39,501 bases of DNA from Bacteroidia bacterium (GTDB taxonomy: Bacteria > Bacteroidota > Bacteroidia > Chitinophagales > UBA2359). A program made the translations under genes and the position numbers. This document shows positions 1,561-35,227 of this stretch, one piece after another. The notes beneath the pieces are model-generated. The model saw only the letters and a program-made list of their open reading frames with translations, ran no database searches and was not told where the DNA came from. How positions within the stretch are numbered: position 1 is the first letter of the stretch; the number at the start of each line of letters is the position of its first letter. The stretch is from NCBI GenBank assembly GCA_030427245.1, contig JAUHXA010000062.1, positions 1 to 39,501 of the forward strand, given 5' to 3'.

Positions 1561-4500
1561 ATGTAGGTTAGGTCATAAGAGTAAGTTCCGAATTCAGTTG
1601 AAGCTACGGTGAATACTGGATTTCTACAATCCAAACAACTCAATTCTGTGCCGATTGCGTCTGAATTAATCGCATCTGGTACCCATACCCAATCTATTGC
1701 TCCTCCAGCGCTTGTAGGGGTATGTCCTTGATCATTTAGTGTAACGATAACTTGTCCTACTCCTTCTGCTTGACATTCATAAATGGTTTCTGCACCATTT
1801 AATCTTGGAAATACAGTTACTACTACATCGTCTGTTGTGGTACAACCTCCTCTGTTTGTTTCTAAAGCAAAATTATAGTTTACATTTGGAGGATTGGGAT
1901 TGTTGAATTCGCCTATATTAGTCAGTACTTCGGGTACAATGGTTGGATTGGCAACAATTGTACTGTTCAATGCACCTGCAACTGGTTCTGTCCAATTGTA
2001 AGTATAACCTGTTACACTATCTCCACATCCCAAAGTAGTTGTTCCTTCTTGACAAATACTTACATCGTCTCCTGCATTTTCGTATGGAATTGCAGGGAAA
2101 TCTACTATTAAATCTGCTGGTGTACACATACATTCACCGCTTCCCAATATGACCATGTGCATGCTACAGGCATCATTGGTCAGTACAGGTACATTGAAGG
2201 AATGATTGTAGGTATTTGAGCCTGTTGGTACTGTTGGAATTGTATAGGTTTCAAGAACCGTTTCTGTACCTTCAAAAGTGCCATTTCCATCGTCTTCATA
2301 AAAGATAACATTTGTGTCGTCTGCTTTTTCGATGTCTCCTGTATTGTTGATGGTGATTTCTACATCAACTTGCTCATTTGTATTGCTTCCAGAACAAGTA
2401 GCCGTTGCAGTACCTGTCAAAGAAGATAACTGAGGCTTGACGAAATTGATGGCAACGGTATCAACTGCGCTGGTAGGCACTTTTATTTCACAATTGCTAG
2501 CACTGGCTACACATTCTACGGTTTTGTAGAACAGAGTTTCCATTACTACAATGTCGGATGTACAGTTGTAGGTATTAGGTGCGTCAATTTCAAAATTGAA
2601 ACTATAGGTTTGATTCACTGCAATTGGGTCTGTTAGCAAAAATGCCAAGCGTTCTTGATTTCCGTTGATGGTTGTTACGGTTGGGTCTCCAATGGCAGAA
2701 GTTCCTGTGCTGTAATTGACATCTGCAGGAAGGATGACAATGATACTGTCTTCGTTGGTATTGGTAATCGCATCTGGGCCTTCATTGAAGATAGTGGCTG
2801 TGATAGAGGAATTGCCATTGGCATCACAAGCTGAAAAGTCAACTGTCGAACTCAATATATTGGGGTCAAGACTATATGGAGGTGGTCCTTCAATGTGGTA
2901 AGGAAGAGATGCCTGCAATGTTCCTGTAGAAGGGTCGCCACATGGATCAATTCCAACTCCTGCAAAACGCATGATTCCACCTGAGGTGTAATTACAATCT
3001 GTTTCTACTTCAAAACGCAAGAAAGCTCGATTGTCAGCAAGGTTTTCTACGGGGACTCCCTGAATACCATTGTTGTTGTCTATATTGACACTTAAATCGT
3101 TTAAATTGAAGCGATAGACATTTCCCTGTACGTTGGTTCCTATAAATACGGGGTCGCCTACTGAGGTAGGGTTTAGAGCATCAAATGGATAGGAAAACTC
3201 AAAACTTCCTGGTATGTATTGAATACCCACTGCTGGAATGGTGATGTCCAAAACAATGTCGTAAATTGTACCTGTTTTGGTGTTTTTGATTTCGAGTTCG
3301 TAGATTTCTTCTGAACACAATGGAATGGGGTCTTCTGGTTGTACCAGTAAATTGATTTGAAGTCCTGCTTCCTGTGGAATAAAGCTCAGTGTTGCGGATT
3401 CTACATTGGCACAGGTATAGTCTCCGAAAGCACCTGTATAACCTTGTTCGGGGTCTATCAAATTGTTGCCACAATTCGCACCAACTCTTACATCTACTTG
3501 ATCAGGAAGACAAACATCGAAAGTGACTTCTAATTCATAAAAACGACATTCGGAAGGTGTCAATGGCATTGGATTGCCTGGAGTGTCCAAATAAGCCCAA
3601 ATACTATTTCCTGCTCCAAAAGTAGTAGTGTTGGTAATCAACTCTCTTGGACCGCCATTGTTGATGCTGTCTGTCACATCATATAAGTAAGCATATTGTA
3701 CTTGATTGGAGGCATTGTCGAAAGCCATCCAAACTTGGTTGTAATCCCCACTCCCTAAGTTGCATACTTGCAATTCCCAAGAAACAGTATTATCAACTGC
3801 ATTGCGAACAGGTGTAAGAGGATTCAATAAGATATTGGGGTTGGAGTGGTTGATTGTTCCTGTTAGGTTGTAAGCATTGGTACTTACACAACCTGGCTCA
3901 AATGGTTGGGCATACAAAAACTCATCATTGATGGTAATGTCGAAATCCAAATTTCCGCTTGCAGATGCACAGTTAGGAGCTACTTCAAAGGTGAATCGGG
4001 CTTGTGTGCCTGCTACATCTTTGTCGGGAATAGGGAAAGTACCTGAAAATTCGTATCCTTCATCATTTCCTGTAATAGTGGGAGTTAAGCTGAAAGTCCC
4101 TCCAGGTGTACCCAATATTTCCAACTCTGCCGAACCTGTTACAAAATCGTAGCCACCAGGTATTTGAAATTGAATATTGGACAATTCTCCAAAATAAGGG
4201 CGGTATTCGTTGGGGAAGTCATCAGCTGTATTTGAATTGTTGGCTATAAGCCCTTCAATGGTGTAAGTTCCACAACCGTCTTGACTGACAGAAACGATAA
4301 TAGGTGTCACTTCTGGATTGGCGACATAAAAGTTTTCGCCTCCATAATCAAAACAGGAGTCATATACTGTTCCACCTGTATCTGTTGCACTTGCATCTCC
4401 TCTTGGGTATAAGAAGGTAAATCCTCCTCCAATTCCTGGCACATCTAAAATATTGAAGTTTCCGACTAACTGCAATTCGTCTCCATCTACGAGTGTAATG

Positions 4501-11711: not shown

Positions 11712-11770
11712 GTATTGTTATTTTGTTTTTTCACTATAAAGGTGAGTTAAACATTTAACAATTGATAACT

Positions 11771-11814
11771 ATAGAAAAGCCGAAGTGTTGGAATCAACAC
11801 TTCGGCTTTTCTAT
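11771..11814. terminator. perfect hairpin terminator between converging units
   Basis: Two 20-nt arms (11771-11790 and 11795-11814) pair perfectly around the 4-nt loop GAAT. The inner stem is GC-rich (GCCGAAGTGTTG) and the outer stem ends in an A/T run reading CTTTTCTAT in both directions. It sits between the plus-strand TPR gene and the minus-strand precursor peptide gene, so it probably terminates both. Confidence 0.85.
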
Positions 11815-11865
11815 GATTATCAAATAAAACATTCATAAAGGATGAAAAAGGGATTTGAATTTGAA

Positions 11866-12033
11866 TTATTCTTCTTTTTCAGGGTCTCTATTTCTGTTAT
11901 CTTCCTCTCTTTCTTCTCCTTCTTTCGGAGGATCACCTGGGTCTTGAGAATTAGGATCAATACGTGTTCCACCTGATACTTTGTCTAATTGTTCTTCAGA
12001 AAGTTCGTCTTGATTTTTTTTGATTTCGTCCAT
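11866..12033 (-). CDS. double-glycine-leader precursor peptide (bacteriocin/signal-like), exported by the adjacent ABC system
   Basis: The encoded peptide has a leader containing LSEEQLDKVSGG, which matches the LSxxELxxVxGG double-glycine leader cut by C39-peptidase transporters. I chose the ATG at 12033 because it gives a typical 22-residue leader; an in-frame ATG at 12087 would add 18 residues. The predicted mature core is 33 residues starting TRIDPNSQ. It has 19 Asp/Glu/Lys/Arg, five Pro, one Ser and one Thr, no Cys and no aromatics, with net charge about -7. That is unlike a pore-forming or lanthionine bacteriocin. The gene is the last in the minus-strand export operon, 90 bp after the second ABC transporter. 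The function of the mature peptide (toxin, signal, extracellular polymer) is unknown. Confidence 0.7.
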   Translation of the reverse strand: MDEIKKNQDELSEEQLDKVSGGTRIDPNSQDPGDPPKEGEEREEDNRNRDPEKEE

Positions 12034-12177
12034 GATAAATTTAGATTTAAAGTTAAAAAATGCAACGTTGTTTTCGTTGTCGTTCATTTATTAATAGCAT
12101 TAGGTATAGACTTTGTAAACATCGATATAGAATTTTTTGGGAAGAAAATTCAAAAACAGATGTTTTTCATAAAAAAA

Positions 12178-15081
12178 TCATGATAACTGTCTCTTTGCCA
12201 ATTCTTTAAAAAGCCCTTCTTTTTTCATCAATTCTTCAAAAGTTCCCGTTTGAACAATCTCTCCTGCCTCCAAAACATAAATTCTATCCGCATTCATGAT
12301 GGTACTGAGTCGGTGGGCAATGACAATCCGAGTAGCTTGTAATCGTTCTAAACTTTCGGTCACGATTTTTTGAGTTCGGTTGTCCAATGCACTTGTGGCT
12401 TCGTCCATCAACAAAATTCGAGGTTTGTGAACAATCGCACGAGCAATCATCAAACGCTGTTTTTGTCCTCCCGAAAAAGTTCCTGCTCCTTCGCTGATAA
12501 CCGTGTGCATCCCCATAGGCATTTCTTTAATATCTGCCTCCAATCCTGCCATTTTTGCGGCCTCCCAAGCATCCTCTAAAGTCAGCTTGGATGTGCCTAC
12601 AATATTTTTGTAAATATCACCTGCCATCAATGAACCATGCTGCAGTACTACTCCAATTTGCCGCCTTACAGCAGCCGAGTCTAAGGCGTTCAAATCCAAA
12701 CCATCATAATACACAGAACCCGCTTCTGCTTGTTCAAAATCCAATAGTAATCGCATGACAGTTGATTTACCTGAACCCGAAGGGCCAACAAAAGCGACCA
12801 TTTCACCTGCCTTAATTTGAAAAGATACATCGTTTAAAACCAAAAGACCGTCTTCTTCGTATCGAAAATGAACATGGTTCATCTCAATCTCACCACTCAA
12901 TTCTCCTGGATCTTCGCTACTCGCTTTCGATTCGGGTTCTGCCTCCAATAAAGGCTTCACTCGCTCATAAATTGGTATGATGCTCAAGGTCGTTATCAAA
13001 GCATGACCCATGTTCAAACACGAACCTAAAAACTGGTGAAAAGCAGTGACAAAAGCCATGAATACTCCTACCGAAAAGGTGGCAGAATTGCCTACGGTAG
13101 TAGCAGTTGTGACGATGTAGTAGATAAAAAAGAAGAATAGGATGTTTGTGAATTGAGGAAAAGCAGTATTAAAAGCAGAAAGGTAATTTTGTTGTTCTCC
13201 AAGACGAAAGCCCATTTTTTTTAGTCTTGCAAATTTTTCTGCCCAAACTCCAAATACTCTTTTTTCGGCTCCTGCTACCCGAATTTTGGTAATGCCTGAA
13301 ATAAATTCAAACAAAGTTCCTTGAATTTCTCCATACAAATGTGCTATTCGTCGACTGAATCGGAGATTGAGTAAACCAATGAATACTATGAATCCAATCG
13401 CTGCCAATGCTAAAAAAATGCCTACCCAAGCCAAAGTCGAATCGTAGTAGAAAAGTAGCAATAAATTGACCACCGAAAATACTCCTCCCAATACAGCCGT
13501 CAAAACGGTACTCGAAAGCATTGTCCGAATACTATTGATACTCAATGCCCGATTGGTCAAATCTCCTGCTGTAAATTGCTGAAAAAAGGACACAGGTAAC
13601 CGAAGTAAATGATCCATTAATGCGCCTTGTACATTGAGGTTGGTCTTCAATTCAAACCGTAAAAGCAGCAGCGATTTGCTCAAATTCAGTAAGGTTCTGA
13701 CCAACAACAAAATAATCATCAAACCTACTATTTCCAACAAAAAACCTCTATCCGCTTGCGGAATCACACTGTCGTATAAGACGGCTGATAGAATAGGCGT
13801 AAATAAGCCCAGTACACTCCCAATGAAAGCGGTAAACAATATCCAATTTAATTCTTTACGCAATCCTTTGATTGAAAACTTCCACACCTTGCCGACTGTA
13901 TCCAACTTTTCATCAAAAGGCACGAAAAACATGTATGCCAAAGGATCGATTTCGGCAGCTATTTTTGCAGTTACCAGTTGGCTTTTTTTCTTACTTGGAT
14001 CTTTTACGACATATTGTGTAGGGCTTTTTTGTATCAACGCAACGGGTCTTTTTTCTTCGCCCATAAAAGCAATCAAATGTCCACTTTCTTCTGTCCACCA
14101 TTTGCCTCTCAAAATCACTTGCCTTGTCCGAACCTTTGAAGCTTTGGCGATGACAAACAGTGGGTTGTCAGATTTTGCTTCTTTGTCGGTGTATTGCGGT
14201 TCCTGTATGTCAATGCCTATCTCCTCTCCCACTATTTGACAAGCTGCCAACAAAGGATTTCCAACTGCATTTATCAAAAACTCATCAACTTCTTCCTTTT
14301 CCAAAATTTTTGTCAAACGCCCCAAGGAAGATTCCATCGTCACTTCATCCAATGCCATTTTTTCCTTCAAACGTTGACTTTCCTGCAATTGCAATACCTT
14401 ATCTTGACGTACAATCAACTCCAAAGCATATTTTTGAAATGCGTTGATTGTCGTTTGAAGGTTGGGTGTTGAAGCTATATCTTGAGTCGAAAAGGTTTGA
14501 ATTTTTGAAGAATTTTCGCCAGTTTTCAGCCAAAGCTTATTGGAAATAGGCACACACAACCATTCTTTTGAGATTATTTTGTCATTTCCATACAAATAAA
14601 AATCACCTTCTTCCAATTGCACCCAAGTCAGACCTTTTTTTGGAAAAACTATGGTGTTTTTGGTGAGTTGATAAGATTGTTTTCCTTCAATGACTTGATA
14701 ATGTCGAGGTGGGTTTCCGCTTTTGATGCCTTCTGAAACGTGGTCTATCCAACGCTCCAAACTTTTTTGCCAAGCTGTATGTGTAGGTATTTTACTGTAA
14801 AAGGTCGTTTGAGGAATTTCCTCCAACTCTGCCTGATTGCTGACTGCCAACAATACAATACCTTGATTATCCGCCTTTGAAGTCTGCAAAGAAAAAACCA
14901 AATCCCCTGTTTCGGCTGTAAAAAAGTAGGTTCGTGGACTTTTTGCATTTCCTTCTTTGTCCAGTTCTATGTAAAACACCTCCACCTGCCCCGATTTAAC
15001 GAGCCAAACAGCCTCCGTTTTTTGAAGATAAGCGGTTTTATTTGCCGCTAAGGGGATGGTATCGGGATGCTTTATATTCAT
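12178..15081 (-). CDS. NHLM-type peptide-export ABC transporter, second permease/ATPase (no C39 domain)
   Basis: At 967 residues this is much longer than a plain ABC half-transporter. About 400 N-terminal residues come first, beginning with a cupin/cNMP-like beta region (VWLVKSGQVEVFYI), as is typical of the NHLM ABC2 family. A six-helix exporter transmembrane domain follows (about 405-715). The C-terminal ATPase has Walker A GPSGSGKST (~763), signature FSGGQKQRL (~872), Walker B ILLMDEATSALD (~890) and an H-loop IAHRLST (~922), all canonical. It probably pairs with the C39-containing transporter encoded upstream to export the processed leader peptide. The two genes are separated by 297 bp, unusually far for this operon, because a 133-bp mobile-like element lies in the gap just upstream of this start codon. 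Confidence 0.88.
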   Translation of the reverse strand: MNIKHPDTIPLAANKTAYLQKTEAVWLVKSGQVEVFYIELDKEGNAKSPRTYFFTAETGDLVFSLQTSKADNQGIVLLAVSNQAELEEIPQTTFYSKIPTHTAWQKSLERWIDHVSEGIKSGNPPRHYQVIEGKQSYQLTKNTIVFPKKGLTWVQLEEGDFYLYGNDKIISKEWLCVPISNKLWLKTGENSSKIQTFSTQDIASTPNLQTTINAFQKYALELIVRQDKVLQLQESQRLKEKMALDEVTMESSLGRLTKILEKEEVDEFLINAVGNPLLAACQIVGEEIGIDIQEPQYTDKEAKSDNPLFVIAKASKVRTRQVILRGKWWTEESGHLIAFMGEEKRPVALIQKSPTQYVVKDPSKKKSQLVTAKIAAEIDPLAYMFFVPFDEKLDTVGKVWKFSIKGLRKELNWILFTAFIGSVLGLFTPILSAVLYDSVIPQADRGFLLEIVGLMIILLLVRTLLNLSKSLLLLRFELKTNLNVQGALMDHLLRLPVSFFQQFTAGDLTNRALSINSIRTMLSSTVLTAVLGGVFSVVNLLLLFYYDSTLAWVGIFLALAAIGFIVFIGLLNLRFSRRIAHLYGEIQGTLFEFISGITKIRVAGAEKRVFGVWAEKFARLKKMGFRLGEQQNYLSAFNTAFPQFTNILFFFFIYYIVTTATTVGNSATFSVGVFMAFVTAFHQFLGSCLNMGHALITTLSIIPIYERVKPLLEAEPESKASSEDPGELSGEIEMNHVHFRYEEDGLLVLNDVSFQIKAGEMVAFVGPSGSGKSTVMRLLLDFEQAEAGSVYYDGLDLNALDSAAVRRQIGVVLQHGSLMAGDIYKNIVGTSKLTLEDAWEAAKMAGLEADIKEMPMGMHTVISEGAGTFSGGQKQRLMIARAIVHKPRILLMDEATSALDNRTQKIVTESLERLQATRIVIAHRLSTIMNADRIYVLEAGEIVQTGTFEELMKKEGLFKELAKRQLS

Positions 15082-15106
15082 TATTATCTATTGTAAAACC
15101 ACGTTT

Positions 15107-15239
15107 GATACTACTGTACATTTCTAATTCAACCACAAAAGGCACAAAGAAAACAAAAGTAAAGAACTGAAATTCCAGCATCTCTTTTGTGCTCTTTTGA
15201 TACTTTTGTGGTTCAAAAATCATTTTGTACAGTAGTATC
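15107..15239. mobile_element. 133-bp MITE-like palindromic element, copy 1, with 9-bp target-site duplication
   Basis: The ends are inverted repeats, GATACTACTGTACA at 15107-15120 and TGTACAGTAGTATC at 15226-15239. A second inverted pair lies inside (AACCACAAAAG... against CTTTTGTGGTT). The element is flanked exactly by the 9-bp direct repeat ACCACGTTT (15098-15106 and 15240-15248). A second copy at 33730-33862, read on the other strand, differs at about 9 of 133 positions. It encodes no transposase, so it would have to be mobilised in trans. It lies 25 bp upstream of the second ABC transporter's ATG. Short ORFs crossing it are by-products of the repeat. Confidence 0.85.
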
Positions 15240-15378
15240 ACCACGTTTATAAACTACTTCCTACGAATTGAATAGATTAACGAAGTATGTGATGTTAGAC
15301 ATTCAAAGGAAAAGGCCCCTATTTAAATATCTTCTATCTCAAATTTCGCTCAAAAAGTCAAATATCTAATTTCAATCT

Positions 15379-17616
15379 TTACTCCGCCCGTATCAAATCT
15401 GCATACATTCCTTTCTGCTCAATCAACTCCTCATGCGTTCCTCGTTGTACCACTTTACCAAACTTCAATACAATAATCTCGTCACAATCTCGAATCGTAC
15501 TCAAACGGTGTGCAACCACAATACAAGTGCAACCCCTTCGGCGAATACTGTCCATCACTATTTTTTCAGATTGAGGGTCCAAAGCACTCGTTCCTTCATC
15601 CAAAACCAAGATAGAAGGATTGACTGCCAAAGCACGGGCAATTTCCAAGCGTTGCCGCTGACCACCACTAAAGTTTCGTCCGCCTTCCAACACCTTGCTG
15701 TCGTAAGCCCCCTTTCGGCTTGCTATTGTGTCGTGAATGTTTGCATCCTTTGCAGCCCGAATGATGTTTTGTTCCGACATCGTATTGTCCCAAAACGAAA
15801 TATTTTCTTTCACCGTTCCTGCAAACAACAGCACTTCTTGATCAACTACTGCCAGCGAATTGTTGACAATATATCGGTCATAAGCATATCGCTCTTTGCC
15901 ATCAAATAAAATATCTCCGCTCCAATGTTGGTACAGACCCGTCAATAACTTGGCAATCGTAGATTTCCCGCTTCCCGAACCGCCGACCAATGCTACTCGA
16001 CTGCCTGGGGTCAAAGACATATTAAAGTTGCGAATCAAAGGCGGTGCCAATTGGCTGTACCCAAAAGTCAGTTTTTTCACCTCCACATAACCTATCAGTT
16101 TGGAGCTTATGGCAGCCTGTTTGTCTTTTTCTAGTTTTAAATTTGATGCAGAGTTTGGCCTTGTAGTTAAGTTTGAGTTTGTAGTTTGACCTTCTGTTGG
16201 AGTCTGCTTTTTAAAATCAGGAGCTTCTTCATATCGAAGCACATCATCAATGCGATTCATATCCCCCTTGGTTTGCTGCAATAAATTTCCAAGTGATACC
16301 AATTGATTCACAGGACGCACAAAACTGTTCATCAAATACAAAAACGCTACCAACATCCCCAAGGTAATTTCACCATCCATGACCTTCAATGCCCCCAAAC
16401 CCAATAAAATAATCGTGTTCAAGCCTGTCAGTAGAGAAGGAAAAATATTGAGTTTACGAGAAAGCCAACCGAGTTCTTGTTGGGCATTGAGGCTTTTGAC
16501 AAAATGCCCCGCCCAATTGGTGAAAAAATCGGTTTCACGTCCCGATGCTTTGAGGCTTTCTATCATCTTCAATCCTGCCATCGTTGTACCCAGCAGTTTG
16601 CTTTTTTCGTTAATCAATCGTCGGCTTCCATCTATTTGCGCTCTGGAAGCCAATCGCAAAATGATGGCATTGACCGACACGACTGCAATGCCAATCAAGG
16701 TAAGTGCGACATCGTAGGTAAACATCAAGGCGGCAAAAAAGACAATCACAATGACATTCAAAAAAGCGGTCGCCAAGCGTCCAGATAGAATGCTTGCTAT
16801 CTTGTTGTTGAGGCTGACTCGACCGCCAATTTCTCCACTGTATCGCTGTGAAAAAAACTGAATCGGTAGCTTCAATATGTGCCATAAAAAGGTGCTGGAG
16901 GTAGTCAAAGCCAATTTGGTGCGAAGGCGAAGAAGGTAATACTGTTGAAGATAAACCAAAAAACCATGCAAAATCATCACCACTCCCATCGCAAATAGCA
17001 GAGGTATTACCCATTCACTCATTTGATTGACCAAAAATTGGTCTATGAAAATTTGTGTAAAGGAAGGGATAATCAAACCAGGAATGACCAAAAACAAACT
17101 CAATAACACCACAAAACTGATGGCAAGTTTTGAGCCTTTGATACGGCTTCCCAATGCAGAAAGCAATCCTGTGGTATCGTTGCCTTTTTGAAAATTTTCA
17201 TCGGGTTCAAAGGTCAGCACCACTCCAGTAAAGGCTTCGTCAAACTCTTGGTAAGTGACTTGATACCTGCCCATTGCAGGGTCACTCAAATACACTCTCT
17301 CGCCTTTGAATCCTTCAAGTACAAGAAAGTGATTGAAGTTCCAAAATAGGATACAGGGCATTTTTAACAGCATCAACTTTTCAGGCGTTTTGCTGAACCC
17401 CTTGGCTTTCAACCCATATTTTCGAGCCGCCTTCAATACATTACTTGCTTTTGATCCATCCCTTGATACGCCACAGGCTATACGCAGCTCTTCTAAAGGC
17501 ACGAATCGTCCATAATACCCCAAAATAATCGCCAATGCTGCTGCTCCACACTCTACCGCCTCCATTTGCAGAATGGTTGGTGTCCGAACAGGTTTTGGGC
17601 GTTTGATTTTACTCAT
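15379..17616 (-). CDS. C39-peptidase-containing peptide exporter (NHLM-type ABC1)
   Basis: This 745-residue protein cuts double-glycine leaders and exports the product. The N-terminal C39 peptidase shows oxyanion Gln17 and catalytic Cys23 in QMEAVECGAAAL, His96 in NFNHFLVLEG, and Asp112 in LSDPAMG, so the protease appears intact. The transmembrane domain spans about 155-440. A low-complexity Thr/Asn/Ser linker (~460-500) precedes the ATPase. The ATPase has Walker A GGSGSGKST (~547), signature FSGGQRQRL (~650) and Walker B ILVLDEGTSALD (~675). It lies after the HlyD gene and before the second ABC gene. The substrate is most plausibly the GG-leader peptide at 11866-12033. The ATG at 17616 is the only in-frame ATG; upstream in-frame codons are a tandem repeat without a start. 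Confidence 0.92.
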   Translation of the reverse strand: MSKIKRPKPVRTPTILQMEAVECGAAALAIILGYYGRFVPLEELRIACGVSRDGSKASNVLKAARKYGLKAKGFSKTPEKLMLLKMPCILFWNFNHFLVLEGFKGERVYLSDPAMGRYQVTYQEFDEAFTGVVLTFEPDENFQKGNDTTGLLSALGSRIKGSKLAISFVVLLSLFLVIPGLIIPSFTQIFIDQFLVNQMSEWVIPLLFAMGVVMILHGFLVYLQQYYLLRLRTKLALTTSSTFLWHILKLPIQFFSQRYSGEIGGRVSLNNKIASILSGRLATAFLNVIVIVFFAALMFTYDVALTLIGIAVVSVNAIILRLASRAQIDGSRRLINEKSKLLGTTMAGLKMIESLKASGRETDFFTNWAGHFVKSLNAQQELGWLSRKLNIFPSLLTGLNTIILLGLGALKVMDGEITLGMLVAFLYLMNSFVRPVNQLVSLGNLLQQTKGDMNRIDDVLRYEEAPDFKKQTPTEGQTTNSNLTTRPNSASNLKLEKDKQAAISSKLIGYVEVKKLTFGYSQLAPPLIRNFNMSLTPGSRVALVGGSGSGKSTIAKLLTGLYQHWSGDILFDGKERYAYDRYIVNNSLAVVDQEVLLFAGTVKENISFWDNTMSEQNIIRAAKDANIHDTIASRKGAYDSKVLEGGRNFSGGQRQRLEIARALAVNPSILVLDEGTSALDPQSEKIVMDSIRRRGCTCIVVAHRLSTIRDCDEIIVLKFGKVVQRGTHEELIEQKGMYADLIRAE

Positions 17617-17733
17617 GGATACTTTGGTTTCTATTGATGCTTTGGATTCTTTGGTTTCTATTGATGCTTTGGATTCTTTGATTTCTATGGATACTTTGGA
17701 TACTTTGGTTTCTATTGATGCTTTGGATACTTG
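17617..17733. repeat. 4 x 27-bp tandem repeat (plus 9-bp partial) immediately upstream of the C39 transporter start
   Basis: Full units are 17617-17643, 17644-17670, 17671-17697 and 17698-17724, followed by a partial GGATACTTG. On the minus strand the array abuts the ATG at 17616 and stays in frame with it, reading as a 9-residue unit K-A-S-I-E-T-K-V/E-S. The in-frame stop is at 17743-17745 and there is no ATG, GTG or TTG in between. It is therefore probably an untranslated leader, unless an unusual start is used. Changes in copy number would not shift frame. Confidence 0.8.
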
Positions 17734-17822
17734 CTTGATACATTACCAATCTTTCTTTGTATTCCTTTGTGCCTTCTTGTTTTTATATTTTGCTGTTAAT
17801 ACTGCGATTAATCATCTGTAAT

Positions 17823-19082
17823 CTAATTCTCAAACAGCTGCTTCAAGGCAGGAATCAACAAGGCAAGTGGTTTTTGCTGCAATGTAGTGATTCGAGCTAT
17901 ACAAGGAGTACCTGCATTCACTTCAATAGGAGGTCCTTTTGAAGTCCATGAAAAACCACTGACTGTATTCGGGTCTTTCTCCAATACGACTTCGACTTTG
18001 AAGGGCGCACCACCTGCAGTAAGGATTTTCACCAACTGCTCGTTTTTCAAAACTTGCTGCATCGCTTGTGGTGTACTGGGATATTCCGACACAAAGGTTA
18101 CCTTGCCTTTCATATAGCCATACTCTGCAGGTTTAATCGTCGCAGGAGCTATCAAAACCTCCATGTCTTTTTTCACCTTTTTTCCATCTTGTGAATTTAG
18201 GTATAAAATGCACCTGATTTGATTGTCATCCTCATCTTGCTCCAAATTGTCCAAACGCAACATCGGCACGCCCGGTGTAATAACATCTCCCATGTCGACC
18301 AATATTTCCAATACTTTTCCGCTATATGGAGACAGGACTTTGGTTTGTGTTTCGTATTGTTCCTCAAGACGTTCAATCAAGCGTGTTTGGTCGTTGATAC
18401 GCTGTTGGGAAAGGGTCAACTGTTGTTCGTTACCAAACTCAAGGGTATTTTCACGAGTAGAAAGGCGTTTTTGACTGGACTTCAATCGTTCAATTTCATT
18501 CTTTGCAGCATCCAATTCTTGTTTGTATTTGTCCAATTGAAGGCGAGTGCTCAAGCCTTCTTCCACCAACTGGGCTTCAATTTCGACCTGTTTTTGAAGA
18601 AGTTGCTGGTTGTTTTGAGCAGTTGCTATTTCTAAAGCAAGCGTAGTTTTTTGTTGTTCTATCAAGTCGCTTTGGAGTTCGATATCACGTGAACCAAAGG
18701 AAGAAAGTTGTTTGTATTGTACTCGCAGTTCGGCTAAGTCTGCTTGAGCTTCGGTGATTTGTTGCTGCAATTCGGGTTTGGCAATTTCCGCTACTTCGTC
18801 ACCTTCTTTGATAAGGTCCCCCGTTTTGATGTGTAGTTTGGTAATTTGACCAGTTGAAACAGGCACTACATCAAACACTCCACTCCCCAACAACATTCCT
18901 TGCCCGCTGACCCGAGTTTTGATTGTTCCTTCAATGCTCCAAAAGATAGCAGTGCCAATAATCAAGGCAAATGCCAATAACAATATCCATGAGCGAGGAT
19001 GGGTGACTTTGATGAGTTCATCCAATCTTTCGGGGGTCGAAAGCCGTTCTAAAGCAGTATTGCGGAAGATTTTTTGTGACAT
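17823..19082 (-). CDS. HlyD-family membrane fusion (periplasmic adaptor) protein of the peptide exporter
   Basis: This 419-residue protein has the usual adaptor layout: a short cytoplasmic N-terminus, one transmembrane helix (about 33-52, LLLAFALIIGTAIFW), a lipoyl/barrel half (~70-95), a long alpha-helical coiled coil (~95-250, rich in Gln/Glu/Leu), then the second lipoyl half (SPYSGKVLEILVDMGDVITPG) and a beta-barrel end. Such proteins bridge the inner-membrane ABC exporter to an outer-membrane channel; no TolC-like gene is in this window, so that partner must be elsewhere. It lies between the cNMP-fold gene (102-bp gap) and the C39 transporter (206-bp gap) on the same strand, as in NHLM export operons. 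Confidence 0.9.
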   Translation of the reverse strand: MSQKIFRNTALERLSTPERLDELIKVTHPRSWILLLAFALIIGTAIFWSIEGTIKTRVSGQGMLLGSGVFDVVPVSTGQITKLHIKTGDLIKEGDEVAEIAKPELQQQITEAQADLAELRVQYKQLSSFGSRDIELQSDLIEQQKTTLALEIATAQNNQQLLQKQVEIEAQLVEEGLSTRLQLDKYKQELDAAKNEIERLKSSQKRLSTRENTLEFGNEQQLTLSQQRINDQTRLIERLEEQYETQTKVLSPYSGKVLEILVDMGDVITPGVPMLRLDNLEQDEDDNQIRCILYLNSQDGKKVKKDMEVLIAPATIKPAEYGYMKGKVTFVSEYPSTPQAMQQVLKNEQLVKILTAGGAPFKVEVVLEKDPNTVSGFSWTSKGPPIEVNAGTPCIARITTLQQKPLALLIPALKQLFEN

Positions 19083-19184
19083 GATAAAGAATTTGATGCT
19101 GTCGATTCTATGGATGCTTGGTAGATACTATTGCATAGAAATTAAATTTATCACTTCTAATTTCTGACACCTCGCACCTGTCTC

Positions 19185-19712
19185 CTAAATTTCAGATAGT
19201 TTTTTCATAATCCTTTCAAAGCGGTTTCCTGCCAGCCACACATTGTCCATCACATTGGCGTCCAACTCATCAGGGTCGTTTTCCTCCACATTACCGTAGC
19301 CCAATCGTCCTGTTGTTTGTCGAAGTCTATCGGAAAGGAAAAGTGCTATCGCATAGTAAAATCGGGATGCAAAACCTGTATCTTCTTCAAGTTTGTCTTT
19401 GATGGCCCAACGAGGTAAAACGAGTACAGAAGAAGCTTCAATAGCCGTTACCGTTGCAGAAGGCGGACGAGCATCTATAAAAGACATTTCTCCAACTAAT
19501 TCTCCACTACTGATTTGTGCCAATTCTTTTCCGCCTATTTTTTCGTCTGTAATAGAAAAGCGACCAGATAAAGTGAGGTATAAATTTTCGATGGGTTCTC
19601 CTTGGTGAATCAAAACATCTCTGGCTGCCACATTTTCTTTCTCTCCTGCTTCTATCATCCATTCTACGTCTAAATCAGATAATTGTCCTAAAATGAATAG
19701 AGCTTTTCGCAT
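19185..19712 (-). CDS. cyclic-nucleotide-binding-fold (CRP-like) protein without DNA-binding domain
   Basis: The 175 residues hold one cNMP-binding jelly roll: VLIHQGEPIENLYLTLSG near 33-50 and the phosphate-cassette region GELVGEMSFIDARPP at 70-84, followed by SATVTA. In CRP an Arg directly precedes the Ser-Ala that contacts cAMP phosphate; here that position is Pro84 and the nearest Arg is 82, so classical cAMP binding is doubtful. No helix-turn-helix follows; the C-terminus is helical (ALFLSDRLRQTTGRLG). It is the first gene of the minus-strand export operon. A regulatory or structural role in the exporter, possibly together with the similar fold at the start of the second ABC protein, is inferred from position. 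Confidence 0.75.
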   Translation of the reverse strand: MRKALFILGQLSDLDVEWMIEAGEKENVAARDVLIHQGEPIENLYLTLSGRFSITDEKIGGKELAQISSGELVGEMSFIDARPPSATVTAIEASSVLVLPRWAIKDKLEEDTGFASRFYYAIALFLSDRLRQTTGRLGYGNVEENDPDELDANVMDNVWLAGNRFERIMKKLSEI

Positions 19713-19935: not shown

Positions 19936-20598
19936 ATGAACTCTGAAACTTTTGGCGAAAAAATAAGAAGACTTAGAAAAGAACAAAAACTAAGTCAAAA
20001 AAAATTGGCCGCAGCAATTGACTTCAATGCCAAAGCTCTGAGCAAGATAGAACGCAACCTTCAATCTGCCCCAGAAAAAATCATTTCTCCTTTGGCAAAA
20101 GCACTTCAAGTTCCCTATAAAGACTTGATGATTAAATACCTCAGCCAAAAAATTTATTACAGTTGCAAAACAATGGATTATGCACAAGAAGCCATTGAAG
20201 TGGTTAGAAGACGATTGGAGAGAGAAAGAGAAGGAACGACTGTTCTTCAAAAAAGAGAGGACATCATCCATTTTGTCCAACAGTTTTTTGCGAAGTTTCC
20301 CATAGAAAAAGCGTGGTTGTTTGGTTCTTTTGCACGAAAAGAAGAAAGTTACGATAGGGACTTAGACTTATTAGTTCGTTATTCTAATCCTAACAAACTG
20401 ACTTTGATAGATTTAATTAAAATTCAGCAAACATTGGAGGAAAAAGTGGGAAGACAGGTAGATTTGGTAGAAGAGGGATATGAACGAAGTCATGTAAAAG
20501 AATATATTCACCGAGATAAAATATTGATTTATGAAGGACAAACCGCAAGTATAGCGAAGTTGAATGGAAAGCCATACAAGCCTTGCGGCATATCTTAG
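19936..20598 (+). CDS. XRE helix-turn-helix fused to MNT-type nucleotidyltransferase (MntA-like antitoxin)
   Basis: The 220 residues comprise an N-terminal XRE HTH (about 5-65, RRLRKEQKLSQKKLAAAI), a linker, and a minimal nucleotidyltransferase domain with GSFARKEESYDRDLDLLV (130-147). The metal-binding acidic pair is Asp142/Asp144 and a third Asp lies in RQVDLVEEG (~177). MNT proteins of this kind pair with HEPN (HepT, DUF86) toxins; MntA-type antitoxins silence HepT by AMPylation. The last ~15 residues (from about IAKLNGKPY) are read out of frame from what looks like HepT coding DNA. That implies a deletion fused the antitoxin 3' end to a toxin remnant. The HTH fusion suggests autoregulation. 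It is divergent from the export operon. Confidence 0.85.
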   Translation: MNSETFGEKIRRLRKEQKLSQKKLAAAIDFNAKALSKIERNLQSAPEKIISPLAKALQVPYKDLMIKYLSQKIYYSCKTMDYAQEAIEVVRRRLEREREGTTVLQKREDIIHFVQQFFAKFPIEKAWLFGSFARKEESYDRDLDLLVRYSNPNKLTLIDLIKIQQTLEEKVGRQVDLVEEGYERSHVKEYIHRDKILIYEGQTASIAKLNGKPYKPCGIS

Positions 20599-20711
20599 CC
20601 CATGATTATTACGAAGTTAATCTCGGAAGATTGTGGAGTATAAAAGAAAAATACATTGAAGATTTGAAGAAGGATATGAAGATGATTTTGAAGGAGGAAT
20701 ATGATATTTGA
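20535..20711 (+). pseudogene. 3' remnant of a HepT/DUF86 (HEPN) toxin gene
   Basis: In the third frame after the MNT gene, an open stretch without a start codon reads 'YSEVEWKAIQALRHILAHDY' and continues to a stop at 20709-20711. RHILAHDY fits the HEPN active-site pattern R-x4-H-x-Y, and the following LGRLWSIKEKYIEDLKKDM resembles the HepT C-terminal helix. Only about 55 of the usual 110-140 residues remain; the N-terminal half is absent and the fragment overlaps the MNT 3' end out of frame. It is probably a non-functional relic of the toxin partner. Confidence 0.75.
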
Positions 20712-30467: not shown

Positions 30468-31301
30468 TTAAACTTGAACAAATATGGATTGTGTGATTGG
30501 AGGTAGAATCTTTTTGGTTTGGGCTGTGTTGAACAAATGTGTGATAGCTTGCCGTCCTTTTTGTCCTAAATCTATACTGTACTCATTGACATATAAATCA
30601 ATATGTTGCATCATTACATTTGTACTCATTTCCTGTGCATACTGGCTCACATACGAAAGGGTATCTTCACGGTTATTGAAGGCTCTTTCTACGCTTTGCT
30701 TGAGTAAAAAATTTATTTTCTTTTTAATAGGTTCAGGTAATGTTCGCCGAACAACTATTCCTCCAAGTGGAATAGGAAGTTTGGTTTCGGTCTCCCAATA
30801 TTCTCCCAAATCTATGACTTTCTTCAATCCTTTTTCTTGATAGGTGAATCGGTTTTCGTGTATAATCAATCCTGCATCTACTTTGCCCTGCAATACGGCC
30901 TCCTCAATTTCGGAAAAGAGCATTTCCTCTTTATTCATTGCAGTGGGAAAAGCCAAGCTCAACAAAAAATTGGCAGTTGTGAATTTTCCTGGAATGGCTA
31001 TTTTTAAATCAGGTACTTTATGGAGGTCTATTTTTTTCTTAGCAATCAACAGTGGCCCACAATTATTTCCCAATGCGCTTCCTGCATGAAGCAGTTCGTA
31101 TTTGTCCAATACGTAGCCCAAAGCGTGATAACTCAGTTTGGTAATGTCCAAAGTTCCTTCAAAAGCCATTTTGTTCAATTCTGCCACGTCTGCAATGTGA
31201 AAATTGAAGTCTATACCTTCTGTGTCTATTTTGTGGTTCACCAATGCATCAAAAATAAAAGTATCGTTGGGACAAGGGGAAAAGCCTAATGAAAGTTTCA
31301 T
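30468..31301 (-). CDS. mqnD: 1,4-dihydroxy-6-naphthoate synthase (futalosine menaquinone pathway)
   Basis: MqnD converts cyclic dehypoxanthine futalosine to 1,4-dihydroxy-6-naphthoate. The 277 residues fit the family's periplasmic-binding-protein-like fold: an N-terminal LSLGFSPCPNDTFIFDALV, then DITKLSYHALGYVLDKYELLHAGSALGNNCGPL (broken here only in description), and GLIIHENRFTYQEKGL around 155. The gene lies directly downstream of mqnB on the same strand, so the futalosine branch is clustered; MqnA, MqnC and MqnE are not in the window. The start codon overlaps the edge of nine tandem 8-bp repeats, so the translation-initiation region is potentially length-variable. Confidence 0.93.
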   Translation of the reverse strand: MKLSLGFSPCPNDTFIFDALVNHKIDTEGIDFNFHIADVAELNKMAFEGTLDITKLSYHALGYVLDKYELLHAGSALGNNCGPLLIAKKKIDLHKVPDLKIAIPGKFTTANFLLSLAFPTAMNKEEMLFSEIEEAVLQGKVDAGLIIHENRFTYQEKGLKKVIDLGEYWETETKLPIPLGGIVVRRTLPEPIKKKINFLLKQSVERAFNNREDTLSYVSQYAQEMSTNVMMQHIDLYVNEYSIDLGQKGRQAITHLFNTAQTKKILPPITQSIFVQV

Positions 31302-31372
31302 ATGGTTGTATGGTTGTATGGTTGTATGGTTGTATGGTTGTATGGTTGTATGGTTGTATGGTTGTATGGTTG
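31301..31372. repeat. nine tandem copies of TATGGTTG touching the mqnD start codon
   Basis: Nine uninterrupted identical 8-bp units run from 31301 to 31372. On the mqnD strand they read CAACCATA repeated, and the last base pairs form part of the ATG. The whole array fills more than half of the 131-bp mqnB-mqnD gap. Perfect short repeats mutate by slippage; since the unit is 8 bp, copy-number change would shift spacing and any frame read through it. Confidence 0.95.
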
Positions 31373-31432
31373 TAACTATAAAATTATTTGATTACTAAAT
31401 TGTTCGATTGCGTCAAATAGAAGTATTCCAAT

Positions 31433-33729: not shown

Positions 33730-33862
33730 AATACTACTGTACAAAATGATTTTCGAACCACAAAAGTATCAAAAGGGCACAAAAGAGATGTTTGAATTTC
33801 CGTTCTTTACTTTTGTTTTCTTTGTGCCTTTTGTGGTTGAATTAAAAATGTGCAGTAGTATG
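33730..33862. mobile_element. 133-bp MITE-like palindromic element, copy 2 (inverted relative to copy 1), with 9-bp target-site duplication
   Basis: The length is exactly that of copy 1 and about 93 percent of bases match when one copy is reverse-complemented. The terminal repeats are AATACTACTGTACA and TGTGCAGTAGTATG. The element is bracketed by ATCTGCTCT at 33721-33729 and 33863-33871. The right duplication overlaps the stop codon of the deiodinase-like gene (33870-33872), so insertion was right at that gene's end without altering the protein. It lies between convergent genes, and its palindrome could fold in transcripts from either side. Confidence 0.85.
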
Positions 33863-34612: not shown

Positions 34613-35227
34613 TTACGAAACAGCACAAGCATACATATTTTTCCCTCCGTAAATACTTTTTCTTTCACCCAACTTCTCCGCTACTCCAAAACCTGCTTCT
34701 TGAAACAACTTTTTTAGGTTTTGAAAATCAATGGGGTAAGGCACCCAACGATTCGCATTCAGATGGTCGTATTCAACCACAATAAACAGCACTTCTTCAC
34801 TGCAATGTCGTAGCAATCGCTTCAAAAAGGCTTTTTTATCGGCTACATAATGCAACGCATTTGCCATCATTACACCTTCTAATTTATCGGCCAAATACCA
34901 ATTGTCTTGCTCAAAATTGGCTTGAACAAACTCAATTTTTACAGTTCCGATAGGTTGAAGAATATCTTGTTTGCTTCGGTCAACGGCATAAATCGTACTT
35001 TGGGGAGGGAGTAAAGTCGCCAATGCTTGTGTGAAAATGCCACTTCCACATCCCAAATCTGCCCAAATCATGGGTTGAATTGAAGGAATGGGAGCGTTTT
35101 GTATTAGCTGTCTTGCTTCGGAGATTTGCATTTTTTTGGAGATATTGTTTTGTGGATAATGTAATCGCCAAGTTCCCAATGGTATAAAGAATTGGCTGAT
35201 TTTTTTAGAACGTAAAATAAAAATCAA
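34613..35227 (-). CDS. class I SAM-dependent methyltransferase
   Basis: The 204 residues have motif I WADLGCGSGIFT (55-66), a motif II acidic VDRSKQ strand (~85), ANALHYV as motif IV (~118-124) and VEYDHLNANRWVPYP (~155), the profile of small Bacteroidota methyltransferases of unknown substrate. The ATG at 35227 overlaps the Fic stop by 4 bp, which suggests translational coupling, but the conserved part begins at Met33 (position 35131, MQISEARQLI), so the true start may be there. A degenerate copy of residues ~33-70 lies upstream of the Fic gene (36379-36487). Confidence 0.85.
   Translation of the reverse strand: MIFILRSKKISQFFIPLGTWRLHYPQNNISKKMQISEARQLIQNAPIPSIQPMIWADLGCGSGIFTQALATLLPPQSTIYAVDRSKQDILQPIGTVKIEFVQANFEQDNWYLADKLEGVMMANALHYVADKKAFLKRLLRHCSEEVLFIVVEYDHLNANRWVPYPIDFQNLKKLFQEAGFGVAEKLGERKSIYGGKNMYACAVS

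Follow-up and report, generated by a model that had tools for sequence, protein, structure and literature searches.

The window analysed here, a 39,501-nucleotide stretch of Bacteroidia bacterium DNA (contig JAUHXA010000062.1), carries a minus-strand operon of five genes that run from 19712 to 11866 and encode, in order, a cNMP-fold protein, an HlyD-type adaptor, a C39 peptidase-containing ABC transporter (ABC1), a second ABC transporter (ABC2) and a small peptide with a Gly-Gly (GG) leader. With about even confidence, we regard this operon as an NHLM-type exporter with one dedicated short-leader cargo, which would leave the cell unmodified, with ligand-binding sensor domains gating its export. 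The exporter is of an established kind (NHLM); what is new here is the short leader, the extreme composition of the cargo core, the trimmed operon and a predicted CRP-like domain on ABC2.

The arrangement of the five genes (Table 1), as described in an earlier sequence-only reading, was borne out by coordinates and family scores. HlyD, ABC1 and ABC2 are adjacent and all score above the curated NCBIfam cut-offs, and the catalytic residues expected of a C39 peptidase (Cys, His and Asp) are kept in all seven aligned rows, those of ABC1 and six relatives, in support of the assignment as a leader-processing NHLM/C39 exporter. The peptide gene starts 90 bp 3' of ABC2, counting from its first ATG, and a terminator-like hairpin lies between it and a convergent TPR gene, so that the peptide gene is probably the final gene of the operon; the hairpin is absent from the list of a consensus terminator scan.

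Table 1. Features of the operon and of the adjoining gap, with positions in the window.
Feature	Position	Strand	Description
cNMP-fold protein, operon gene 1	19185-19712	-	175 aa; PF00027 62.9 bits
HlyD-type adaptor	17823-19082	-	419 aa; TIGR03794 336.8 bits vs cut-off 156.2
ABC1, C39 peptidase-permease-ATPase	15379-17616	-	745 aa; TIGR03796 1063.6 bits vs cut-off 853.3; PF03412 123.9 bits
ABC2, permease-ATPase without C39 match	12178-15081	-	967 aa; TIGR03797 908.2 bits vs cut-off 709.4, residues 274-966
ABC2 residues 1-122, predicted CRP-like domain	14716-15081	-	AlphaFold model and structure matches
GG-leader peptide	11866-12087	-	73 aa; 55 aa from internal ATG (11866-12033)
Leader, C-terminal end ELSEEQLDKVSGG	11968-12087	-	profile built without window peptide, E=7e-7
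33-residue core, TRIDP...	11869-11967	-	58% charged; frame test
Terminator-like strong hairpin, gap between peptide gene and convergent TPR gene	11762-11823		29-nt arms; -40.1 kcal/mol, z -14.6

The proposal of a GG-leader cargo is supported by the leader. Two starts are possible, the first ATG giving 73 residues with a leader of 40 and an internal ATG giving 55 residues with a leader of 22; the 55-residue peptide of the sequence-only reading corresponds to the open reading frame (ORF) from the second of these starts. A profile built on 15 leaders that belong to other loci, with the window peptide left out and with some of its leaders drawn from loci that also serve for comparison below, retrieved the window peptide from the 7.58 Mb host genome at the E-value given in Table 1, the next match standing at E=1.67. 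An earlier profile had included the window leader and was circular, and the profile without it is the fair test. Judged by sequence, no other leader of the same type in the host genome is as convincing as that of the window peptide, and there neither leader profiles nor TIGR03793 returned further convincing cargo of this type; the best other match of TIGR03793 (E 0.41) contains three internal stops. The window contains one instance of a strict leader motif, as against two in total over 200 dinucleotide shuffles. The core is in frame with the leader, and among in-frame windows its frame score falls at the 44th percentile, a value typical of coding DNA that none of 2000 off-frame coding windows reached, which argues against a frameshifted core. 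Codon usage alone is no proof that the core is coding, because 23% of the overlapping intergenic windows without stops (586 in all) also reach its score. The +1 frame after the GG, which is open for 50 codons and would encode a hydrophobic and then basic tail, was considered and rejected, as the coding score prefers the acidic frame.

The host belongs to the Bacteroidota, judging by its relatives and by a Por_Secre_tail domain encoded in its genome, and exporter matches near it are rare. In searches that scored 2-7 candidates per genome, and whose counts are lower bounds that include the host, matches were found in at least 2 of 149 genomes of the order (the host and G085, the latter below the cut-off), in at least 31 of 395 genomes of a phylum sample and in at least 9 of 395 of a class sample. 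The wide view covered 19 of the 31 phylum-sample genomes together with G085, picked by ABC2 length, score and contig room, and all 6 new genomes of the class sample. The 13 closest loci comprise 12 from members of the class outside the order (L046, L047, L048, L050-L052, L083-L088) and one from Spirosoma (L068). A GG-leader peptide is present in 10 of these 13 (L046, L047, L048, L050, L051, L068, L084, L085, L086, L088), and none was seen in L052, L083 and L087. A stricter filter, which drops leaders with Cys or few acidic residues and misses the peptide of L048 (spotted separately), found GG peptides in 6 of 14 other wide-view loci (L049, L053, L054, L055, L064, L065) and in 6 of another set of 13 (L004, L007, L008, L010, L013, L015); the match in L060 and one of those in L053 look like chance. 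In L055, which belongs to the same order and whose ABC2 match is below the cut-off, a GG peptide begins 64 bp after ABC2 and is followed by a second one, and L064 has a GG peptide, its leader 20 residues long, at a distance of 310 bp from the end of ABC2. A GG peptide at this position is thus a recurrent feature, and the refuting condition set beforehand by the sequence-only reading, that homologous loci never encode one there, was not borne out. Other genes recur in the 13 closest loci as well, namely TolC (12/13), DUF7005 (10/13), an AraC-type gene (9/13) and a stand-alone cNMP gene (10/13). DUF7005-like genes were observed near the NHLM exporters of L046-L048, L050-L052, L068, L071 and L083-L085, L071 being from a cyanobacterium. 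In L047 (556-7492), the NHLM exporter is accompanied by a cNMP gene, six GG precursors and a pair of class III nucleotide cyclases, which fits a nucleotide link to export.

The composition of the core agrees exactly with the figures first calculated for it: 33 residues, 19 of them charged, five Pro, no Cys, no aromatic residues (no F, W, Y or H) and a net charge of -7. The sequence is rich in Asp and Glu, with two Lys, a single Thr and a single Ser, and is of low complexity. Its charge density is the highest of 33 cores, the other 32, which omit further precursors of L053, L054, L064 and L065 and all loci of the L004-L015 set, reaching at most 37% charged residues and a net charge no more negative than -5. 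Cys-free cores are usual, accounting for 22 of 25 from the close class loci and Spirosoma. What sets this core apart is charge density and not the absence of Cys, and the earlier description of an unusual product holds in the first respect but not in the second. Acidity by itself is less remarkable, because NHLP and N11P precursors are described as mostly negatively charged (PMC3140520). The peptide exceeds no precursor-family cut-off. It scores 14.5 against 50.9 bits for the NHLP precursor (TIGR03793, last 16 profile positions only), 20 against 32 for the CTB family bacteriocin (NF038167), 13.1 against 15.7 for bacteriocin_sig (TIGR01847) and 13.4 against 32 (E 0.058) for GRASP_targ_2 / graspetide precursor TIGR04497 and kin, whose ligases occur on other contigs only; the Nif11 precursor (TIGR03798) is absent among its matches at E<=1, and PADLOC has no match for it. 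NHLM exporters are also accompanied by short-leader, Cys-free cargo with 29-37% charged residues in L088 and, as four related ORFs, in L086, and the window peptide is an extreme member of a small group with these two. The L086 peptides (2595-4111) share a common charged, Cys-free core and lie upstream of TolC-HlyD-ABC1-ABC2; the L088 peptide, searched in plasmids, found no match.

Two components of the operon are candidate sensors. The stand-alone cNMP protein falls just below the cut-off of TIGR03896, the bacteriocin-transport cNMP protein (151.7 against 161.05), in an alignment that covers positions 139-316 of 317, which is the second half of the model. It also matches PADLOC TIR-effector models (E 3.3e-14), which we read as reflecting the common cNMP domain. 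In 11 of 11 Bacteroidota rows, Pro occupies the position of the phosphate-binding Arg of CRP; this substitution makes cAMP doubtful as a ligand, and the ligand is probably a different one. The second candidate, residues 1-122 of ABC2, precedes the TIGR03797 match. In VIA-align its AlphaFold model superposes on CooA (Z 9.8, root-mean-square deviation 2.9, 105 residues) and NtcA (Z 9.7), with all 50 listed rows of CRP/FNR type, and the best Foldseek match is Vfr (E 3.1e-4). The notes of the aligner describe best Z values of 7 to 8 as common, so the match is good, not overwhelming. Comparison of the ABC2 N-terminus with stand-alone cNMP proteins by hhalign gave E 1.9e-4 (probability 47), and PF00027 is weakly detectable in the ABC2 N-termini of two relatives (E 0.014 in L086, 0.19 in L083). 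The model matches point to a CRP-like fold and hence to another sensor-like domain in addition to the stand-alone cNMP protein. The literature listings consulted contained no paper that deals with this operon or describes a CRP-like domain in the ABC2 of NHLM exporters.

Together, these features suggest the following route. The C39 domain of ABC1 would cut the precursor after Gly-Gly, and the ABC1/ABC2 pair would export the 33-residue peptide via HlyD, with TolC supplied from another locus. Released without modification, the product would be a disordered polyanion and may serve in signalling or in the matrix outside the cell. Export could be switched by a small ligand, probably other than cAMP, that acts on the stand-alone cNMP protein and on the predicted CRP-like domain of ABC2; ligand gating is proposed by analogy with HetC, whose cNMP domain is required in vivo. 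The specific combination in which two CRP-like sensors, one separate and one fused to ABC2, control the release of an unmodified disordered polyanionic peptide is put forward tentatively, as a doubtful proposition in its entirety. Counted in favour of an unmodified peptide are its single Thr, single Ser and absent Cys and the lack of a LANC-like match in the host genome, in a search whose control was positive in 1 of 14 genomes and which was not extended genome-wide to YcaO, LanM dehydratase or radical-SAM enzymes. As the sequence-only reading had stated, the ORFs scanned around the operon include no recognised enzyme that modifies ribosomally synthesized and post-translationally modified peptides (RiPPs); an ORF resembling a methyltransferase gene is located at 34613-35227, some 15 kb from the operon.

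Several observations weigh against this reading. The search for homologues of the window peptide itself, which the earlier note had called for, came back empty, with a hit in 1 of 60 relatives that is the host itself, and a plasmid search with the peptide gave no match. The closest relatives use long NHLP leaders, and in Spirosoma the same kind of exporter is paired with a LanM-annotated gene. No TolC gene is found among the window ORFs of at least 60 residues, nor are DUF7005 or AraC-type genes, and because these are genes of the close loci, the earlier terms 'self-contained' and 'complete' were too strong; DUF7005 was also not found in the host genome, in a search without a positive control. 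For the candidate ABC2 sensor, structural confidence is moderate (mean pLDDT of the N-terminal model 60, ten-residue means 50-82 over residues 21-120), Pfam assigns no domain to residues 1-122 of the window protein and no PF00027/cNMP match to the ABC2 N-termini of 8 of 10 relatives, and a sequence profile of the N-terminus found nothing better than E 0.088 among PDB chains. Finally, the host genome contains two grasp-with-spasm loci, which bear on the first of the alternatives.

The main rival is modification in trans, most plausibly graspetide formation, in which an ATP-grasp ligase would join Asp or Glu side chains to Lys, Thr or Ser before NHLM trimming and export. With two graspetide loci in the genome, such modification is conceivable, but we consider it unlikely. 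Both loci lie on other contigs (L090, 5149-7711, TIGR04192 299.6 against 230 and TIGR04193 351.2 against 175; L094, 4575-13000, 272.1 against 230 and 224.1 against 175). The Asp/Glu-rich core with its few Lys, Thr and Ser residues would suit the chemistry, the leader has the weak GRASP_targ_2 match noted above, and a 10-residue likeness links the window peptide to the GG peptide of L090. Against this, L090 and L094 each have their own nearby GG peptide with another leader end, though neither is recognised by NCBIfam, L094 is equipped with its own C39 exporter (the host genome has two further C39 exporters, one beside a grasp-with-spasm locus), and no such ligase adjoins the window operon. It is still less probable that the peptide is an unmodified antibacterial, cut by C39 and exported like a class II microcin. 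Class II microcins do undergo C39-type cleavage and export, so the export chemistry would be the same, and the leader resembles bacteriocin leaders in its sub-threshold TIGR01847 and CTB scores; the core, however, has hardly any hydrophobic or aromatic residues and is strongly negative, and no immunity gene was recognised among the scanned ORFs. Least probable is a genuine leader with a decaying core, the drifted tail of a former cargo in a trimmed and possibly disused operon. In favour of it are the uniqueness and low complexity of the core, the genes of relatives' loci not found here, the repeats between ABC1 and ABC2 and before ABC1 and the weak intergenic control; against it, the four exporter-side ORFs are full length and the core keeps its coding frame.

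Several repeats lie in the window. The element between ABC1 and ABC2 (15105-15250) has perfect 15-nt terminal inverted repeats and a second copy at 33731-33861 (95% identical over 131 bp), and is like a miniature inverted-repeat transposable element. A 27-bp tandem repeat of 4.3 copies (17616-17732) abuts the ABC1 start codon, where it might affect translation. Elsewhere, a perfect 8-bp tandem repeat of 9.2 copies (31301-31374) is located where a VitK2_biosynth gene (30468-31301) starts, and phase variation is conceivable because the unit is not a multiple of three. At 19936-20711, a fusion of helix-turn-helix (HTH) and nucleotidyltransferase parts is followed by a short ORF in another frame that resembles a HEPN tail by eye, possibly a broken toxin-antitoxin pair.

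NHLM exporters have mostly been discussed as outlets for modified peptides. That several loci place short-leader, Cys-free, strongly charged cargo next to them, and that ABC2 has a predicted CRP-like domain, hints at a regulated outlet for plain peptides as well. If this is true, the NHLM exporters of this bacterial group would, in addition to handling modified natural products, secrete unmodified short-leader peptides under regulation, an idea to which L086 and L088 point. The small window operon offers a simple place to test both the plain-peptide route and the putative ABC2 sensor.

Among the closest known systems is the three-gene NHLP/Nif11 exporter (Haft 2010, PMC2887384), whose HlyD, C39-ABC and ABC2 genes the window shares. 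That account gives average leader lengths of 83 (NHLP) and 70 (N11P), in contrast to the 40 or 22 residues here and to a cargo that falls below all precursor cut-offs, and it already describes orphan precursors without modifying enzymes. The Spirosoma oryzicola plasmid NZ_CP089546.1 (L068) has an ABC2 48% identical to that of the window, the identical gene order cNMP-HlyD-ABC1-ABC2 and, on the 3' side of ABC2, a GG peptide that lacks Cys; unlike the window operon, it also carries TolC, an HTH regulator, a DUF7005-like gene, a methyltransferase, the LanM-annotated gene and, besides that peptide, two precursors that are annotated as NHLP and as TOMM propeptide, respectively. CTB family bacteriocins are alike in their short leader, with a leader match of E 5.8e-4 that is limited to residues 20-43 of the window peptide and stays below the family cut-off. 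HetC of Nostoc PCC 7120 is a C39 exporter whose cNMP domain binds ppGpp and forms part of the C39 subunit itself, with no neighbouring leader peptide known (PMC10986499), whereas in the window the putative sensor domains sit on ABC2 and on a separate protein and the cargo gene is adjacent. In mode of action, the closest tested parallel is EbfG1-4 with PteB of Synechococcus elongatus (PMC4997328): there too, a C39 exporter assists the secretion of small GG-motif proteins, with cores of 6-7 kDa in contrast to the 33 residues here, and the biofilm depends on these proteins and on the cysteine of the C39 domain.

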